Origin: Bacillota bacterium
GTDB lineage: Bacteria; Bacillota; Clostridia; Acetivibrionales; DTU013
Assembly (NCBI GenBank): GCA_029778665.1
Contig: JAKOPX010000234.1
Span: 1-39,440 of the forward strand
DNA: 39,440 bases
Direction of reading: 5' to 3'
The position numbers were made by a program, and so were the translations under genes. Of the stretch, positions 397-8,690 are shown piece after piece. Under the pieces are notes generated by a model. It ran no database searches. It was given only the letters and a program-made list of their open reading frames with translations, and was not told where the DNA came from. How positions within the stretch are numbered: position 1 is the first letter of the stretch; every line of letters begins with the position of its first letter.

Positions 397-2001
397 TTAA
401 AGAGCTATGCTCCGCTCTGTGCCGTCTTTCAAGATAAAAACAAAGTTATGATTAGAAGATTCCTGTACAATTACTTTATCAACTAAACTGAGCCAGAGGT
501 TTTCATTAAAGTCCATTTTTTCCCATTTGAGTTTACCTAATGATTCTATGAAATGCTGGCAAGAGAAGCGGCGTTTCTTCATGTTCTCTATGCGTTCTTT
601 TAAACTTTTTGATTCCGTAACTTTCGTCTCATAATCACGAATCAACGTTTCATATGCAGCAAGCTCTTCTTCATTATCGCTGGCACGTTTGGCTCGTTTT
701 GCGAGTTGCTCTTCAAGCTGTGTATAAAGCACATCAATACATTTTTGAAAGCTGTCTTGTTCTTGTTCAAGGGAAGTCGGATCTAGGACCTTCGCAATAA
801 TGTTTTTTGTTGTTATCACGATAGTTTCTTTATCGTAAATCAATTCGCTTACCATTCTTATAAAAGCAGCCTGTATTTCATCCTCTAGCAGGTGCGGGGT
901 ATGGCAAACCTCATTGCCTACATATTTTTTGCCACATTGCCAAACGTAGCGCTTATACTTTGAGTTTGAATGCCAGACTTTCCTGGTAAAAGGTTCCCCG
1001 CAGGAAGCACAGATGATTCTTCCAGAGAAGAAATTTACAGAGGAACCACTTTGTTTGCTCTTGTTTCTGCATTCAATCTCATGCTGAACCAGGTCAAAAA
1101 TTTCATCATTCACAATCGCTTCATGGCTGTTAGTCACATAATATTGAGGCACTTCGCCTTCATTGATTTTTTGTTTCTTAGTCAAGAAGTCAACAATGAA
1201 ACTCTTTTGTAAGAGGGCGTCACCTTTATACTTCTCGTTTTGTAGGATGCTTTTAATCGTGGAACTTGACCATTTCGTCTTTCCACGGGGCGTTTTAATA
1301 TCTTCTCGAGTCAGACTCCTTGCAATTCCGTTATAGGTTTGTCCCTGAAGAAACTCCCGATAGATTCGGCGCACAATTGCTGCTTCCTCTGGAATAACTT
1401 CCGGCTTGCCGTCTTCGCCTTTTCTAAATCCTAAGAAAGATTTATACGGCATAGATACTTTGCCGTCAGCGAATCGTTTGCGTTGTCCCCATGTAACATT
1501 TTCGGAAATGGATCGGCTTTCCTCCTGTGCCAAAGAACTCATGATCGTAATCAGCAATTCTCCCTTTGCATCATCTGTCCAAATATTCTCTTTCTCAAAA
1601 AATATGGTCACTCCATATTCTTTCAGTTTTCTGACATTGGAAAGTGTATCAACAGTATTTCTGGCAAAACGTGATACGGACTTTGTAAGGATTAAATCAA
1701 TTTTTCCGGCTAAGGCATCTTGAATCATCTGTTGGAAGCCCTCACGCTTTTTTGTCATAAGGCCTGAAATACCTTCATCCGTGTAGACCTTCACAAATTC
1801 CCAGTCAGGGTTTTCTTGAATATATTTTGTGTAATAATCAATTTGTGCATCGTAGCTATTGAGTTGTTCATCTTCATCAGTAGAGACTCTGGCATAAGCA
1901 GCAACCCGACGCTTTTTAGGTTTCAGTTCTGCTTGAAACTTACTCTTCCGTATTTTCTTTGGAGGAATGACGGTAACTGTTTTAACTTCCACGACGTTCA
2001 T
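397..2001 (-). CDS. Large serine recombinase with coiled-coil (second of pair)
   Basis: A 534-residue large serine recombinase. The N-terminal resolvase domain has YARVS with the nucleophile serine at about residue 40, and the conserved SRFARNTVDTL helix. A Recombinase domain follows (roughly 200-300). Next is a zinc ribbon (CASC, then later Cys residues in a WQCGKKYVGNEVCH stretch), then a charged coiled-coil (about 405-480) and a short C-terminal beta segment. This is the full architecture of phage and transposon integrases that cut and join attachment sites. Its start overlaps the end of the upstream recombinase by 20 bases and has only a weak ribosome binding site (AAAGAAAGG directly before ATG), so it is probably translated by coupling. 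An in-frame GTG three codons in is an alternative start. Integration or excision is inferred from the family. Confidence 0.93.
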   Translation of the reverse strand: MNVVEVKTVTVIPPKKIRKSKFQAELKPKKRRVAAYARVSTDEDEQLNSYDAQIDYYTKYIQENPDWEFVKVYTDEGISGLMTKKREGFQQMIQDALAGKIDLILTKSVSRFARNTVDTLSNVRKLKEYGVTIFFEKENIWTDDAKGELLITIMSSLAQEESRSISENVTWGQRKRFADGKVSMPYKSFLGFRKGEDGKPEVIPEEAAIVRRIYREFLQGQTYNGIARSLTREDIKTPRGKTKWSSSTIKSILQNEKYKGDALLQKSFIVDFLTKKQKINEGEVPQYYVTNSHEAIVNDEIFDLVQHEIECRNKSKQSGSSVNFFSGRIICASCGEPFTRKVWHSNSKYKRYVWQCGKKYVGNEVCHTPHLLEDEIQAAFIRMVSELIYDKETIVITTKNIIAKVLDPTSLEQEQDSFQKCIDVLYTQLEEQLAKRAKRASDNEEELAAYETLIRDYETKVTESKSLKERIENMKKRRFSCQHFIESLGKLKWEKMDFNENLWLSLVDKVIVQESSNHNFVFILKDGTERSIAL

Positions 2002-3274
2002 GCCTTTCTTTTGTTTTCTGCGCCGCTGTAGCTCTCATCTCTTTGGTCCAACTTTCACTGCGGCTTCTGTCTGCCCAAAACACTTCCTGGCTGCTATGAT
2101 CGACAAATTCAAAGATGAGACGATTCCCGTTATATGCCGTGATAGAAAGGACTTTCGCTTCAAAGACTGTTTCATCAAAAACATCCAGACCTAAGACCTG
2201 AGCAGAGATATCAATGAGCGTTGATTCTGGTATCTGTTTTGAACAACAGCCTCGAAGACCGTCTCTCTTATAGATACGACAAATCCATTTGTATATGCCA
2301 CGGTCATATTTGCGGTTAAACTTTGCACTGCATTCTCCACAAATCACTTTTCCTGAAAAAGCAGTCTTTGTTCGCACACGATGGTGATGGCATCTGGATG
2401 ATTTTTGCTTCTGTGCCTCATCAAACAATTCTTGAGAAACAATCGCCTCGTGACTATTTTCAACATAGTACATAGGCAATTCACCATTATTTCTAACTTG
2501 TTTTTTCGATAAGTAGTCTGTCACGAATGTTTTTTGAAGCAAAGCATTACCTGTATAAAAGACGTTATCCAAAATTTGGTTGATACGATTGGTTTGCCAT
2601 TTGGCTCCGGATAGCGTTTTAATCTCTCGCTGATTAAGATCCCTGCAAATTGCATTAGGTAAATCACCTGCAGCAATTCTGGTAAAAATTTCTTGAACAA
2701 TTTCAGACTCTTCAGGGATAATGATTGCTTCTCCGAGAACAATATTGTAACCATAAACTCTTCTCAGTTGAGCAAGTTTTCCTTCTTTATAACTTTTACG
2801 AACCGCCCACTTGACGTTATCGGAATTCGATTTGCTTTCGGCTTGAGCAAAGGAAGCAAGCAGTGTGAGCATCAACTCGCCGTCACTTGACATCGTGTTA
2901 ATATTTTCTCGTTCAAAAAGAACAGCAATACCAAGTTCTCTTAGTTCACGAATCACATTCAAAAGATCAACGGTGTTCCTGGCAAAACGAGCGATGGCTT
3001 TTGTTAGGATGATGTCTACTTGTCCCGCTCTGCAGGCTCTGATTAATGCTTCAAAACCCGGTCTCTTCTTCGTTGTTCCAGTCTTAGCACTGTCAGAAAA
3101 GATACCTGCAAACTTCCAAGTAGGATTGGCAAGTATTCGGCTACGATAGTAATCAATTTGTGCTTTTAGTGAGTGTAGCTGTTCTTCCTTCCCAGTCGAC
3201 ACTCTTGCATACGCTGCTACTTTGCTACGCTCAATAGCATCCGGTTTTTTTACAGGAATTTTGATAATATCCAA
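1982..3274 (-). CDS. Large serine recombinase lacking coiled-coil (first of pair)
   Basis: A 430-residue serine recombinase. YARVS places the catalytic serine at about residue 26. IARFARNTVDLL matches the resolvase core, a Recombinase domain follows, and a zinc ribbon (CGEC, later Cys-Cys) is present. Compared with its downstream partner it is about 100 residues shorter, because the coiled-coil between the zinc ribbon and the last beta segment is missing; the terminal segment (LIFEFVDHSSQEVFWADRS) is retained. The start appears to be TTG at 3274, preceded by AAAGGAGAG. The pair resembles the paired arrangement of ccrA/ccrB in staphylococcal cassettes in layout. Whether both subunits act together is inference. 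The DNA is visibly more AT-rich than the structural genes. Confidence 0.92.
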   Translation of the reverse strand: MDIIKIPVKKPDAIERSKVAAYARVSTGKEEQLHSLKAQIDYYRSRILANPTWKFAGIFSDSAKTGTTKKRPGFEALIRACRAGQVDIILTKAIARFARNTVDLLNVIRELRELGIAVLFERENINTMSSDGELMLTLLASFAQAESKSNSDNVKWAVRKSYKEGKLAQLRRVYGYNIVLGEAIIIPEESEIVQEIFTRIAAGDLPNAICRDLNQREIKTLSGAKWQTNRINQILDNVFYTGNALLQKTFVTDYLSKKQVRNNGELPMYYVENSHEAIVSQELFDEAQKQKSSRCHHHRVRTKTAFSGKVICGECSAKFNRKYDRGIYKWICRIYKRDGLRGCCSKQIPESTLIDISAQVLGLDVFDETVFEAKVLSITAYNGNRLIFEFVDHSSQEVFWADRSRSESWTKEMRATAAQKTKERHERRGS

Positions 3275-3367
3275 AGTACGAGCTCTCCTTTCCGCTTACA
3301 TGTTTGCTCTAAAAGGCTTTATTATCCAGTCAATTCGAAGCAATAAACCGTTAAGTTTTCTTGTGCT

Positions 3368-3556
3368 TCATAGCTTTTTATCGACATTGTTCACAACCTC
3401 CAAACCGGTGATAGGCGGAGCAAACTGGTGAAGGAGCTCTCGTTTTACCTTGATGAATTCTGGCTCGGTTAGTAAGCCCTTTCTAAAAAAGATAGAACAA
3501 AGATAAAGGGCAAGTTGATAATTCTGTTCTTTTTCCCAAGATTTATTCACAGCCAT
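3368..3556 (-). CDS. Small SHOCT-like protein of the recombinase cassette
   Basis: A 62-residue protein starting at the ATG at 3556 (MAVNKSWEKEQ). The middle (YQLALYLCSIFFRKGLLTEPEFIKVKREL) has the short two-helix pattern of SHOCT-type domains, in which a hydrophobic helix is followed by a GLLT turn and a charged helix. The open frame extends 26 codons further upstream, inside the preceding gene. The start at 3556 overlaps that gene by 14 bases, a spacing seen at several other junctions here. It sits between the Zn-finger/HTH gene and the first recombinase, and I infer a role as an accessory recombination or oligomerisation factor. No function is proven for this family. Confidence 0.7.
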   Translation of the reverse strand: MAVNKSWEKEQNYQLALYLCSIFFRKGLLTEPEFIKVKRELLHQFAPPITGLEVVNNVDKKL

Positions 3557-3935
3557 CACCAGCAAAGCGAAATTTGATGTAACAGCTATGCGAACAGAAT
3601 TTTCTCTCTTTGCGTCCTTTAAATTTCTTGCCACAGTACAAACAGACTTTTTCGTGGCCAGTACGCTTTAATCGACGTTCTTTTTGCCACCATGCTTGAC
3701 GACAACTATCAGAACAGAAGCGCTTGACCTTGCATCCAGGCATCTGTTTTATAGATTCACCACAATTAGGGCAGACACGATTGATAGGCTTTATCGTCGG
3801 TACGTAATCAGCACCCAGTCCATTTCTTTGACAAAAGGACTTTACCGTGTTGAGTGAAATATTATATCGGGTGCTGATTTCGCGGTAGCTAAGGCCTCTG
3901 TCACGACCTTGCCTTATTTTTTGTTGCTGTCCCAT
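3543..3935 (-). CDS. HTH plus double zinc-finger protein, recombinase-cassette regulator candidate
   Basis: A 130-residue protein. Residues 1-45 look like a sigma-region-4 or resolvase-type helix-turn-helix (LSYREISTRYNISLNTVKSF). Two Cys4 fingers follow: CPNCGE...RFCSDSC (about 55-77) and CLYCGKKF...KFCSHSC (about 97-117), separated by a basic linker. Such proteins are often labelled sigma-70-like in Firmicute mobile elements. This one lacks sigma region 2, so I would not call it a sigma factor. It begins the cassette that ends with the two recombinases, and its ribosome binding site lies in the hairpin of the leader at 3944-3982. A DNA-binding accessory role (regulator or directionality factor) is inference. 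Confidence 0.8.
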   Translation of the reverse strand: MGQQQKIRQGRDRGLSYREISTRYNISLNTVKSFCQRNGLGADYVPTIKPINRVCPNCGESIKQMPGCKVKRFCSDSCRQAWWQKERRLKRTGHEKVCLYCGKKFKGRKERKFCSHSCYIKFRFAGDGCE

Positions 3936-4042: not shown

Positions 4043-5179
4043 TTAGATTTTCTTCACTCCGTCCAGAGGAACCCAGGATGCAATGCCGTCCGGCCAGCCG
4101 AGCAGGACTTTGTCCTTTTCAATCTGTGAGACGGTATGCGTCCGCTCCTTGACCCAGCCGGGGATAGTCTCTCCGGTTGCATAACGAGAAGCCGTGATTT
4201 TTACTTTGTCACCCACCTTCAGAAAGGCTGACACAGGAAGTTTCAGCTTCTGCCCGGCATAGATGACATTCGAGGTCAGGCCATTTAAGAGCTTGATTTC
4301 CGGATAGCGGCTGCCGTCACCGAGATAAGTTTTAGCAATCTTCCAGAGACTGTCGCCGCTCTTGACGATATGAACCTGTCCGGTTTCGGAAGGCTGTAAA
4401 GCTTCTTCCCTTGGATAAATCTTCGAGCCGTTCTCGGCAAAAACGAAGTAGCCTTTGTTCTCGTCAGCTTTTTTCTTAGCATTGGCAAGTACCCTATACG
4501 CACCGAGCTGACTATTCTTATCCGCCCAAGACTTGCGTACTCGGTAGTAGCCTTCCGTAAGCTTTGCCGGATAGCCCTCACTTGGAACAGGCTTCGGCTT
4601 TTCCTCGTTTCCTGTCTCGCTCATCAAGAGTTTAACATCACGTCTGAAGTCATCCATGTTCTTTCCAAAGCGTGAGAACCAGTGTCTCGGGTCGCCGTGA
4701 TTGGAAGCAATCCCGCGCTGATGTCCCTCATAGTGGCCGATGATTACGCCGTCCTTCATGGGATCGAGTTTGTACAGTTTACAGAGATACGCGCAAAGCT
4801 CCGCCGCTTCTTTCCAGACAGCCTTAAGATAGCTTTCGTCATTCAGACCGTCTTCGCAGATCTCAAAGCTGGTGTGGGTATTGTTCGCCGCACCGCCGGC
4901 GTGCCAGCCCCGGTGATCCCAGGGAAGCGTCTGGTAGGTGGCGATTGTGCCATCCTGTAGCTTCCCGATAAATCCATGTACACAGACTTGTCTGTCCATC
5001 GGCTGGTTCCAGTGGTTATTGTATTGATTCTTCCCGAGCTTACCGTCATCAGGGCCGACGTAGCGTTTCAAGTAGGGATTGTTTGCACCCGTCGAGTGCA
5101 CCATAATGCCCTGCACTTTAATCTTTTGTCCTGCCTTGTAGCAGGCGTTTTCCGTGAAAATCAGTTTATTCAGATTCAT
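4043..5179 (-). CDS. Endolysin: N-acetylmuramoyl-L-alanine amidase with LysM
   Basis: A 378-residue peptidoglycan hydrolase. Residues about 20-170 form an Amidase_2 domain: MVHSTG gives the zinc-ligand His28, FEICED the Glu106 region, and GHYEGHQRGIASNHGDP the remaining zinc ligands (His153 or His161, and Asp163). A SPOR/linker-like segment (about 208-255) follows, then a LysM repeat (about 268-314, HIVKSGDSLWKIAKTYLG) and a C-terminal SH3-like beta domain. It would cleave the amide bond between muramic acid and the stem peptide and release progeny with the holin. The start at 5179 is chosen because GAGGAGGAC precedes it and family proteins start near here. It overlaps the holin end by 14 bases. 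No signal peptide is seen, in keeping with holin-dependent export. Confidence 0.93.
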   Translation of the reverse strand: MNLNKLIFTENACYKAGQKIKVQGIMVHSTGANNPYLKRYVGPDDGKLGKNQYNNHWNQPMDRQVCVHGFIGKLQDGTIATYQTLPWDHRGWHAGGAANNTHTSFEICEDGLNDESYLKAVWKEAAELCAYLCKLYKLDPMKDGVIIGHYEGHQRGIASNHGDPRHWFSRFGKNMDDFRRDVKLLMSETGNEEKPKPVPSEGYPAKLTEGYYRVRKSWADKNSQLGAYRVLANAKKKADENKGYFVFAENGSKIYPREEALQPSETGQVHIVKSGDSLWKIAKTYLGDGSRYPEIKLLNGLTSNVIYAGQKLKLPVSAFLKVGDKVKITASRYATGETIPGWVKERTHTVSQIEKDKVLLGWPDGIASWVPLDGVKKI

Positions 5180-5579
5180 CTTTGTCCTCCTCATTAATTG
5201 CTTCCAGCATATTTTTCAGAGCCTTTGGAATCGGCAGTCCCAGATGCGCCGCATTTTCCAGAATGGAAATGCCCTCGTTAGAGAGATAGAAAAAGATGAC
5301 GGCGGTTCTGATGGCGCTGCCGTCTTTTAGAACAGCGGTGTCGAGGATGTTCCCGATACCGACCAGTGTGAAGATCAAGACCTTTCTAGCGATTCCTTTA
5401 AAACCAACTTTGCTGGAGAGCTGTTTGTCTTCAATGGCGCAAAGAACGCCTGTGATGTAGTCCACTGCAACAAAGGCAATCAGTGCAAAAAGAAAGCCGT
5501 CCAGCCCTCCGATAAACCAGCCGACAGCTCCTCCTACAGCGGTAAATGCCGCCTGAATGGCATTCCAGATGTGTTTCAT
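5166..5579 (-). CDS. Phage holin
   Basis: A 137-residue membrane protein of the toxin-secretion/phage-lysis holin type. An N-terminal amphipathic stretch is followed by hydrophobic segments (about residues 12-45, GGAVGWFIGG and LFALIAFVAVDYITG), a basic loop (KQLSSKVGFKGIARK), another hydrophobic segment (VLIFTLVGIGNIL) and a further apolar region, then an acidic tail. VDYITGVL and the GIARK loop are typical of the family. It forms lesions in the cytoplasmic membrane that let the downstream amidase reach the wall. The start at 5579 has GGAAGGAGG seven bases upstream. An intrinsic terminator lies directly before this ribosome binding site. Confidence 0.92.
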   Translation of the reverse strand: MKHIWNAIQAAFTAVGGAVGWFIGGLDGFLFALIAFVAVDYITGVLCAIEDKQLSSKVGFKGIARKVLIFTLVGIGNILDTAVLKDGSAIRTAVIFFYLSNEGISILENAAHLGLPIPKALKNMLEAINEEDKDESE

Positions 5580-5599
5580 GTTGAAATCCTCCTTCCAAA

Positions 5600-5626
5600 T
5601 AAAAAATGCCTGCACATGGGCAGACA
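5600..5626 (-). terminator. Terminator abutting the holin ribosome binding site
   Basis: On the minus strand TGTCTGC-CCATGT-GCAGGCA (7-bp stem including one G-T pair) is followed by TTTTTTATTT. The holin ATG is only about 22 bases beyond the T run, leaving no room for a separate promoter. Confidence 0.75.
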
Positions 5627-5655
5627 CTTTCTTTCCGTGATTAATATTTATTTGT

Positions 5656-8115
5656 TTAGTTTTGCTTCGGCAGCCAGTCCCAGAGCCTTAAGTCCTCTTG
5701 GCCTAGTGACCACATACACGTTCCTCGAAGTTTCCAGCGATAGGCCGCCTCGTTCATCCAGTAGATGATGCTGTCCACATCCTGGTAGTAAAGGATGGAA
5801 AAACCATCCGAGTCGCCAAGAAACAGCCGTGATATCCAGACGTTGATATCCCTCGGGATAATCTTTACCGGATAGTCGTGTCCGCAGATGAGATTCAAAA
5901 GGCCGGAGTGAAAGAACTCATAATCCAGAGAAATCTCCTCCGTCCTGGTCTCGTGCTCCTCGATATCGGAATCGACTGTAAAAACCTGAAACTCCTCATC
6001 CCAAGTAACGCCCGTCCGATTGATCCGCCCAAAGCTCGTAAAGCTTCCGTCCGGCATCTCTACATCAAAGCGTTCATAGGGTTCGTAGGTATAGGCATCA
6101 CCGACCCGAAAGAGCTGGCAGTGGACAGGGCTGTCCGAGCGAATTCCGGTAAAGCCGCCCGGATCAGATACAGCCGACTGAAACCGCAGCGACTTCGATG
6201 CGCCCGAATAGACTCGGACGTTATTTCCACGCTTTCGCATCTCAATCGTGTAGACATAAGGAGACGCCCTGATCTCTGCTTCCGACGTCTTTTCAAAAGA
6301 GGTCGCAAAGGAATCTTTAAGGACAGAGCCTTCATACAGTTCCACAGCCTGTGCATCATAGTTAAAGCAGCAGAAGAGATCCCCAAGGAAAATACCTGCC
6401 CTGCCTGTAAAGCTTTCAGGAAAAATCATCTGCGCCCGAAGGTGGAGGTCCGTGAAAGACCCATACTTCAAGGCAAGCCGTCCGTAGCCTTCAAGCTGCG
6501 AATACGGTCTGTAGCTATCTTCCTCATCTTGCCAGACGGACCACTCGCCATCAAGCACCGCCCAGTAAGAATCAGGCAGCGGCGGGTCATCTCTGAAATC
6601 CTCATACCAGATAAGAGCGGAGTCTGCCTTTCTTCTAAGCATTTCAAAGGTCAGCTTAAAGCCTTCTCTTGGCCCTAGCATCACACCGTCGATATCTTTG
6701 AATTTTCTCGGCGAGAGCAGGTAGTCTGCTGTGCCGCAGACCGTACTTTCCGTAAAGCTTCGGCAGACCTTAAAGCCATAAACCTGAACGCCCGGTGCGG
6801 ATACGGATACCGTCAAAGTGTGAGATCCCGCCGAAAGCGACACGCCGCTCCATGCTTTTTTCCAAAAGGTCGTCCGCCAATAAGGCCACCAAAGCCTCGT
6901 CTCTTCAAAGAGATGGCTGCTGCCGTCCAGTGAAAGGTAAAGACTGTTCTTGTCCCAGAAGGGAAAGCCGATATTCACGGCGATGTCATAAACACCTGTT
7001 TGATCTATCGTGAAGCGGTAGCTTGCACTTCCGCCGTCGCCCAGCGTTAGCATTTTTTCAGAAACCGAGACAACCCCCGAATAGCTGTCCGGCATGGCGT
7101 TTCGTTCCACGACAATACCCTCAAATTCTTTCTTTTGCGTCTTGCCGTAGGATGTCAGATAGCGCCGCCTTTTATAGACCTCACTCATCAAAGGATAGTT
7201 GTAACTTTCTGCGTCCTGCCCCTCCATGTAGTCATAAACGTGTGGCAGTGCCCAGGGCACCTTGTTGTAATCATCCCAGTAGGCGGCAATCGGTATCTGA
7301 GGGGACGGCGGGTCCGTCTCCTTAAACTGATAAAAGCCCGTCATCCAGTTTTTTGCACCGTAATAGGTATGCGATACACCTCGGTAATATTCCCCTAAGT
7401 TTTCCGGTGTATCGTAAATTTGCCAGTTCCAGCCATAGGCGGGAATGCCAAGATAAATCTTACCGGGCGGCATCACAGCGAAAGCATACTCGTAGATACC
7501 TTCCAGCCAGTCACGGGGAGATACGGGACCCGGAGCAGAACCTGCCCAGGCCATACCGTAGCTCATGATGGATGCCGTATCGCAATATGGAGCGAGGTCA
7601 GCATAAATGCACCAGTTCTCGCCACCGACCGAACCATCCACCGACGTCATGCCGGGAAGACAGATATTAACCCGTTTTGCGGCATTGTAGTTTTTCACCG
7701 TCTGATAGATATTTTGAAACATGGCTGTTGACTTTGGCGCAGTGGAATAATCACCGCCGCCTTCCAGGTCAATGTCCACACCGTCACACCAGGGATATTT
7801 CTCCATGATGCGGACAAGCTCAGATAAAAACATATCCTGCGCACCGTTTGTATTTTCACGGATGGTACGGAAGATGGAGTTATAGCCGTCGTTAGCTACG
7901 GTTAAAAGCCAGCGGATATGTGGCCATTTATTGACATAGGTCATCATGTCGGAGATCGCGACACCTGTCTCGTAGATTTCGCCTGTGGCTTTGACTTTAA
8001 AAGAAAAAAGACCGATCTGACTAATACGGTCTCCATACTTTTGCAGTGCTTCCCACATGCGGGCATTGCCCATGAAGGTCCAAACCATGACCTCACGGCC
8101 CTTTAAAATTTCCAT
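5656..8115 (-). CDS. Tail-associated glycosyl hydrolase family 18 protein
   Basis: An 819-residue protein. Residues about 10-320 form a GH18 (chitinase/endo-beta-N-acetylglucosaminidase type) barrel: DGVDIDLE at about 111-118 holds the catalytic acid glutamate, and SIMSYGMAW and GIPAYGWNW match later barrel strands. The middle (about 345-460) looks like a carbohydrate-binding or beta-sandwich module. The C-terminal half has further beta-rich segments with no family I can name. The position after the anti-receptor and before the holin suggests a tail-tip enzyme that breaks down surface glycan or peptidoglycan during infection. The start at 8115 (ATG) has GGAGGTGAT upstream and overlaps the preceding stop by one base; an upstream in-frame TTG is possible. 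Substrate cannot be read from sequence. Confidence 0.88.
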   Translation of the reverse strand: MEILKGREVMVWTFMGNARMWEALQKYGDRISQIGLFSFKVKATGEIYETGVAISDMMTYVNKWPHIRWLLTVANDGYNSIFRTIRENTNGAQDMFLSELVRIMEKYPWCDGVDIDLEGGGDYSTAPKSTAMFQNIYQTVKNYNAAKRVNICLPGMTSVDGSVGGENWCIYADLAPYCDTASIMSYGMAWAGSAPGPVSPRDWLEGIYEYAFAVMPPGKIYLGIPAYGWNWQIYDTPENLGEYYRGVSHTYYGAKNWMTGFYQFKETDPPSPQIPIAAYWDDYNKVPWALPHVYDYMEGQDAESYNYPLMSEVYKRRRYLTSYGKTQKKEFEGIVVERNAMPDSYSGVVSVSEKMLTLGDGGSASYRFTIDQTGVYDIAVNIGFPFWDKNSLYLSLDGSSHLFEETRLWWPYWRTTFWKKAWSGVSLSAGSHTLTVSVSAPGVQVYGFKVCRSFTESTVCGTADYLLSPRKFKDIDGVMLGPREGFKLTFEMLRRKADSALIWYEDFRDDPPLPDSYWAVLDGEWSVWQDEEDSYRPYSQLEGYGRLALKYGSFTDLHLRAQMIFPESFTGRAGIFLGDLFCCFNYDAQAVELYEGSVLKDSFATSFEKTSEAEIRASPYVYTIEMRKRGNNVRVYSGASKSLRFQSAVSDPGGFTGIRSDSPVHCQLFRVGDAYTYEPYERFDVEMPDGSFTSFGRINRTGVTWDEEFQVFTVDSDIEEHETRTEEISLDYEFFHSGLLNLICGHDYPVKIIPRDINVWISRLFLGDSDGFSILYYQDVDSIIYWMNEAAYRWKLRGTCMWSLGQEDLRLWDWLPKQN

Positions 8116-8690
8116 CAAAAATCACCTCCGTCCTCCATTTCCTGCAGGGTAAAAAGCAGCCTTGCCGACTTTTTCTCGCCCACATCCACGATGTGCTTGG
8201 AATCCCAGGCAGCGCTGTACGGATAAAAGCCCTCCTTTGTGAAGGGCTGACCGTTTTTTGTTGCGGTTCGGTTAAGCGCATCCACTTCCAGCTCGTCTCC
8301 TGCCAAAAGTGCTCCTGGAAAATGTGCCCACTGTCCGCCCACGCCTTGAGCGATGGTCACGCTTCCTTCTGCGAGGTCGGTCTTCGGATAGAGCTTGATA
8401 TCAAGTCCCGCTGCGGTCTTGCCGAGGTTAAAGAGAACCAGCGTTTCTTTTCCTCGGACGATGGCGTTATACCAGACCGGCTCACGCACGGCACCGTCCA
8501 CGCTGTGTTTTTTCAATAAAGTCTCCGTATGTGGCAGAAAGCCTGTCAGTCGGTCGCCTTCCTGGAGCATCAAGTCCGTTAGCCAGACAATGCCTGACAT
8601 ATCTTTTAAGATCGGCTTTATCGTGACCGAAACCACTCGGGACTCGCTTTTTTTATTGACGGTTTCAGAAAGCCTGTAAAATTTCTGCAT
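8115..8690 (-). CDS. Tail-tip accessory protein with TDLMLQ module
   Basis: A 191-residue protein of unknown function. Its N-terminal 50 residues (VVSVTIKPILKDMSGIVWLT, then DLMLQEGD) closely resemble the small protein encoded immediately upstream (8699-8896), so the two share a module. The remainder is beta-rich. The start at 8690 has AGGTGATCGT before it. Its place between the anti-receptor and the GH18 enzyme, with an end-to-start overlap on both sides, makes it a tail-tip or baseplate component by context only. Confidence 0.75.
   Translation of the reverse strand: MQKFYRLSETVNKKSESRVVSVTIKPILKDMSGIVWLTDLMLQEGDRLTGFLPHTETLLKKHSVDGAVREPVWYNAIVRGKETLVLFNLGKTAAGLDIKLYPKTDLAEGSVTIAQGVGGQWAHFPGALLAGDELEVDALNRTATKNGQPFTKEGFYPYSAAWDSKHIVDVGEKKSARLLFTLQEMEDGGDF

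Follow-up and report, generated by a model that had tools for sequence, protein, structure and literature searches.

The DNA stretch analysed here (the window, 39,440 nt) is an entire contig (C425) of a 562-contig, 2.43-Mb assembly and includes the left end of a prophage, where the minus-strand genes follow each other in the order holin, endolysin, HTH/zinc gene, SHOCT_2 gene and two large serine recombinase (LSR) genes, denoted rec1 and rec2. The last four, transcribed from position 3935 to 397 as close or overlapping frames, were described in the first-pass annotation as a four-gene cassette with two unequal serine recombinases, and the open reading frames, Pfam matches and AlphaFold models all confirm that description. 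The features are as follows.

5166..5627, minus strand: holin (Phage_holin_4_1 domain match)
4043..5194, minus strand: endolysin (Amidase_2 and LysM domain matches), directly upstream of the four-gene set
3543..3935, minus strand: HTH/two-zinc-motif protein, 130 aa (PHROG 2308, E=4e-34)
3368..3556, minus strand: SHOCT_2-domain protein, about 62 aa (PF20612, E=5e-7)
1982..3274, minus strand: rec1, large serine recombinase without coiled-coil, 430 aa (Pfam domains, alignment, AlphaFold model)
2777..3220, minus strand: rec1 catalytic (Resolvase) domain (PF00239, aa 19-166)
2393..2716, minus strand: rec1 Recombinase DNA-binding domain (PF07508, aa 187-294)
2075..2359, minus strand: rec1 zinc domain, no coiled-coil insertion (PF13408 and AlphaFold model, aa 306-400)
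397..2001, minus strand: rec2, 534-aa large serine recombinase carrying a coiled-coil, with Ser40 as catalytic residue (Pfam, alignment, AlphaFold)
850..1029, minus strand: rec2 zinc ribbon (PF13408, aa 325-384)
532..777, minus strand: rec2 coiled-coil helices, aa 409-490 (AlphaFold)

The endolysin gene, by its position, identifies this as the late end of the prophage. The gene at 5656-8118 encodes a late phage protein of 820 aa in which a domain of glycosyl hydrolase family 18 is recognized (E=1.7e-13). The SHOCT frame can be read from 3634 (3368-3634 in the first-pass annotation); the conserved protein begins at the ATG at 3556, and with this start the gene shares the last 14 nt of the HTH/zinc gene, while rec1 and rec2 overlap by 20 nt. 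Between rec2 and the contig end 396 bp remain, and there a minus-strand fragment just past rec2 (1-150), inside which the contig stops, may belong with IS66 TnpC, which it resembles by eye. The same genome carries a second, distant set on contig C358 (L003), consisting of a SHOCT gene (68 aa) and a recombinase gene (519 aa), with another recombinase beginning at the contig end.

Recombinases with and without a coiled-coil

Resolvase, Recombinase and Zn_ribbon_recom matches, all above the Pfam cut-offs, and the catalytic Ser/Arg residues that together characterize LSRs are present in both rec1 and rec2, whereas the coiled-coil typical of LSR integrases is found in rec2 only. As the first-pass annotation had claimed, rec1 keeps the catalytic serine and the zinc ribbon: its key residues are Ser26, Arg96 and Arg99 in the catalytic domain and Cys312, Cys315, Cys332 and Cys343 in the zinc domain, and these, together with Tyr22 and Arg24, are invariant in 15 aligned rec1-type proteins, the corresponding residues being likewise invariant among the aligned rec2 proteins. 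The further claim that the coiled-coil is missing in the first recombinase and present in the second is borne out by the AlphaFold models. In the rec1 model (mean pLDDT 81.5), helix alphaJ (350-360) is followed almost immediately by alphaM (368-374) and then by the final strands, whereas in the rec2 model (mean pLDDT 77.6) two long helices (409-438 and 444-490) separate alphaJ from alphaM (500-506); the low pTM of both models (0.38 each) makes the relative placement of domains unreliable, while local helix content is reliable. In LI integrase, the coiled-coil is inserted between alphaJ and alphaM (PMC3783163), and rec1 therefore lacks exactly that insertion. Sequence and models show rec2 to be a complete integrase with a catalytic domain, two DNA-binding domains and a coiled-coil, and rec1 a complete catalytic recombinase minus the coiled-coil alone. 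The best fold matches of rec2 are the SPbeta and phiC31 integrases, and its domain order, coiled-coil included, is that of the single LI, A118, phiC31 and SPbeta integrases with a recombination directionality factor (RDF); these, however, act as one enzyme and none is known to have a coiled-coil-less partner.

Relatives, co-inheritance and targets of the pair

The order HTH/zinc, SHOCT, coiled-coil-less rec1 and coiled-coil-bearing rec2, which the first-pass annotation had proposed to look for in other genomes, recurs in many divergent loci on genome contigs, viral contigs and in named phages, with dozens of carriers among divergent Clostridia genomes, gut phages and phages of streptococci. 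Because so many divergent loci show the identical gene order, chance is excluded; the module is real, conserved and mostly unannotated. A survey of a sample of the class (391 genomes) retrieved 20 coiled-coil-less rec1-type loci with flanks outside the window: rec2 adjoins rec1 on the same strand in all 20, and the SHOCT and HTH/zinc genes are each present in 16, some of the other loci being cut by contig ends. One contig of metagenomic viral origin shows 97.6% identity across 11 kb. Many gut Clostridia phages carry the module, with its genes mostly annotated as hypothetical protein or DNA invertase; Ca. Heliusvirales gut phages (PV0364xx records) have the identical four-gene order after the endolysin, with 43-46% identity to rec1 and with the module genes annotated solely in those two ways, although three of these phages, unlike the window, carry a rec1 with two zinc domains.

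The closest published counterpart is in streptococcal phage phi1207.3, in which the lysis genes are followed by orf55 (53 aa, matching the SHOCT profile), orf56 (412 aa) and orf57 (521 aa). The window has the same layout of lysis genes, SHOCT-like frame, coiled-coil-less recombinase of about 400 aa and coiled-coil-bearing recombinase of about 520 aa with close or overlapping frames, and rec1 and rec2 share clades with orf56 and orf57, respectively. As in the window, the module follows the lysis genes in phi1207.3, phi-SsuSH0918_comEC, phi-SsuJS7_SSU0237, Javan95 and Javan255, where it forms the right end, with a SHOCT-like 53-aa frame and recombinases of 402-412 and 520-521 aa that fall into the same clades, but their recombinase sequences are far diverged and their host is Streptococcus. 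According to a 2014 paper (PMC4260502), the phi1207.3 recombinases overlap, probably cooperate in excision and integration, and resemble ccrAB and phi-m46.1, and the element (Tn1207.3) inserts at a GA dinucleotide in comEC. The two-recombinase module is therefore of a known kind, and the first-pass suggestion of an undescribed variant finds no support. Neither the accessible text of that paper nor other searchable papers mention the coiled-coil asymmetry, which seems to be unstudied so far.

The resemblance to ccrA/ccrB noted at first pass extends to the layout: in SCC and the Enterococcus cassette chromosome, CcrA and CcrB (447/547 aa; PMC3068701; model lengths 442 and 542) are likewise adjacent serine recombinases, the shorter before the longer, with neighbours different from those of the window. 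The window pair cannot be assigned to CcrA/CcrB, as the scores against the two models (61.7/115.8 bits for rec1 and 69.4/149 bits for rec2) lie far below the curated equivalog cut-offs of 700 and 900 bits.

A tree restricted to the catalytic and Recombinase domains places 22 rec1 proteins in one clade (support 90) and 22 rec2 proteins in a separate one (99*), indicating that the pair is ancient and co-inherited; streptococcal and gut subgroups repeat in both clades, and the pairwise divergences of rec1 and rec2 are correlated (Mantel r 0.60, p=0.0002, 24 pairs). These data bear on the possibility that the phage integrase is rec2 alone, rec1 being either a separate enzyme that acts at a site of its own, for example an invertase, or a duplicate in decay. 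The faster divergence of rec1, two streptococcal rec1 proteins without a zinc domain and the dispensability of the GirA/GirB pair in gin (PMC5595907) are in its favour, but the invariance of the catalytic and zinc residues of rec1, the adjacency of rec2 throughout the class survey and the long shared inheritance with both active sites kept argue against a dispensable partner and render this explanation quite improbable.

The divergence of rec1 is greatest in DNA binding: identity in the Recombinase domain is 37% for rec1 versus 57% for rec2, compared with 65% versus 77% in the catalytic domain. Within the comEC phages, similarity is about equal for the two proteins (0.71-0.97 for rec1 and 0.72-0.93 for rec2), whereas between comEC and SSU0237-site phages it is 0.48-0.50 for rec1 and 0.59-0.62 for rec2, a comparison covering few phages with known sites (three comEC, one SSU0237); the difference may simply reflect a faster evolution of rec1. 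When the 396 bp between rec2 and the contig end were compared with eight genomes of the host family, no match appeared outside the window, and thus no empty site; no att site was located for the window prophage, and flank searches for two relatives yielded no empty site either. A 50-bp repeat beside the rec2 gene of one relative looked att-like at first and was rejected as a terminator-type hairpin (AAGGCTCA...TGAGCCTT).

Architecture series and the small proteins

Among the related sets, from which near-duplicates were removed in part only, 52 have the coiled-coil in the second recombinase only, to which L108 with a third recombinase after the pair can be added; 24 sets, triplets included, have it in both recombinases, and 13 in neither (the L098/L101 type and rum phages). 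The first-pass idea that only one subunit would sense direction is thus not general across relatives: doublets with the coiled-coil in both or neither occur. The sets L098, L101 and L133-L144, rum-type streptococcal phages included, are doublets of about 400-430 and 470 aa, with neither a coiled-coil nor a SHOCT gene.

Within the rec1 clade, the number of zinc domains is 0, 1 or 2, and no member carries a coiled-coil. In Javan422 and Javan261 (L130:2088-3029 and L132:2085-3002), rec1 stops after the Recombinase domain, rec2 being complete, whereas three rec1 proteins (L060:4492-6288, L061:4465-6252 and L062:4489-6249) have two complete tandem zinc domains without a coiled-coil, each with two Zn_ribbon_recom stretches. 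The latter, at 586-598 aa, had been considered as coiled-coil-bearing versions, which was rejected, as the extra length consists of the tandem zinc domains.

The triplets contain a middle member of approximately 270-296 aa (L014:8040-8906, L015:9007-9816, L016:5593-6483 and L044:7060-7941) that matches the Recombinase domain and has no catalytic domain; possibly, it is a dedicated DNA-binding subunit. The serine integrase triplets of streptococcal ICEs (PMC4701971) likewise comprise adjacent recombinases in position-specific clades that form one module at the element end, but with three genes against two in the window; the triplets in the present analysis have a non-catalytic middle member of about 290 aa.

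Of the two small proteins, SHOCT alone tracks the module. Upstream of rec1, at a distance of up to 1.5 kb, 46 of the 52 second-only sets and 16 of the 24 sets with two coiled-coils carry its gene (none was detected in the other 8); overall, about 60 of 77 coiled-coil-bearing sets have an adjoining SHOCT gene, compared with 0 of the 13 sets without a coiled-coil; in L005 and L006, it is located about 3 kb upstream. The HTH/zinc gene is confined to window-type sets and neighbours the recombinases in 40 of these 52. It stands beside the window pair and is present in the SSU0237, Javan95 and Javan255 phages, but is not beside the recombinases in phi1207.3 and the other comEC phages, and in rum phages its homologues are located far from the recombinases. 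In L092, the HTH/zinc-SHOCT pair occurs twice upstream of the recombinases.

These patterns could be read as showing that both small proteins are ordinary late-phage products without a functional link to the recombinases, since many phages carry HTH/zinc homologues at other positions, and in comEC phages the pair has none as a neighbour. However, SHOCT stays adjacent to rec1 even in sets without the HTH/zinc gene and also adjoins triplets, leaving this explanation a serious, if somewhat doubtful, possibility. For the HTH/zinc protein, we infer an optional regulatory role in the phage, outside the core module. The SHOCT protein, by contrast, is a candidate RDF, given its co-occurrence with coiled-coil-bearing sets and its absence from 13 of 13 coiled-coil-free sets, a contrast that amounts to approximately one independent event because the coiled-coil-free doublets form a single clade. 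The candidacy also draws on known RDFs not binding integrases without a coiled-coil: without the coiled-coil, binding of the RDF by phiC31 integrase is lost, and the same requirement holds for A118 integrase and its RDF (PMC5814800). A literature search returned no paper linking SHOCT, recombinase and prophage.

A proposed two-subunit integrase

The best explanation of the module is that it serves integration and excision of a temperate phage. We consider it moderately probable (about 0.6) that the pair is a two-subunit large serine integrase, with rec2 as the coiled-coil-bearing core and rec1 as a coiled-coil-less partner reading part of the site. The two proteins would assemble mixed complexes on attachment sites, in which rec2 would provide the coiled-coil contacts for joining phage and host DNA (synapsis) and rec1 would bind the half-site or half-sites unreadable by rec2, while the SHOCT protein, made just before rec1, would reset the coiled-coil for excision. 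The site-reading role of rec1 is suggested by the greater divergence of its DNA-binding domains and by the comparison of comEC and SSU0237 phages. CcrA offers a direct precedent for such a specificity role, as Misiura et al. (2013) reportedly found CcrB to be always required and CcrA for one half-site only. Furthermore, LI integrase deprived of its coiled-coil binds att sites normally but loses intermolecular joining and becomes intramolecularly promiscuous (PMC3783163); hence, a coiled-coil-less enzyme would need a partner that has one.

The same LI variant recombines attL x attR intramolecularly (PMC3783163), and CcrAB requires no RDF for either direction (PMC5595907), so that the window pair may need none either. 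This would accord with a switch by subunit exchange, whereby rec2 homomers integrate and rec1-rec2 complexes excise, rec1 lifting the coiled-coil lock on attL x attR with no separate RDF. Such a switch is unlikely, however: the overlap of rec1 and rec2 in one apparent transcript leaves little room for separate control, most sets retain a SHOCT gene, and doublets with coiled-coils in both recombinases persist.

What is new here is that rec1 lacks the coiled-coil in all members, whether they have 0, 1 or 2 zinc domains, that SHOCT is associated with the coiled-coil, and that the HTH/zinc gene is optional. The two-subunit reading can be extended, tentatively and with considerable doubt, to a widespread phage integrase that splits direction control (rec2, switched by SHOCT) from site reading (rec1). 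If so, SHOCT proteins would make up a novel family of RDFs that act on the coiled-coil, and the permanently coiled-coil-less rec1 a tunable site reader, the number (0, 1 or 2) and sequence of its zinc domains following the target.

Large serine integrases are genome-writing tools, and the setting of direction by coiled-coil and RDF is an open mechanistic question. The occurrence of the coiled-coil in both, one or neither subunit provides a natural evolutionary series for testing its function, and partners with 0, 1 or 2 zinc domains could reveal how integrases change target. Collectively, although ordinary as a kind, the module is a useful natural experiment on the direction control of integrases.
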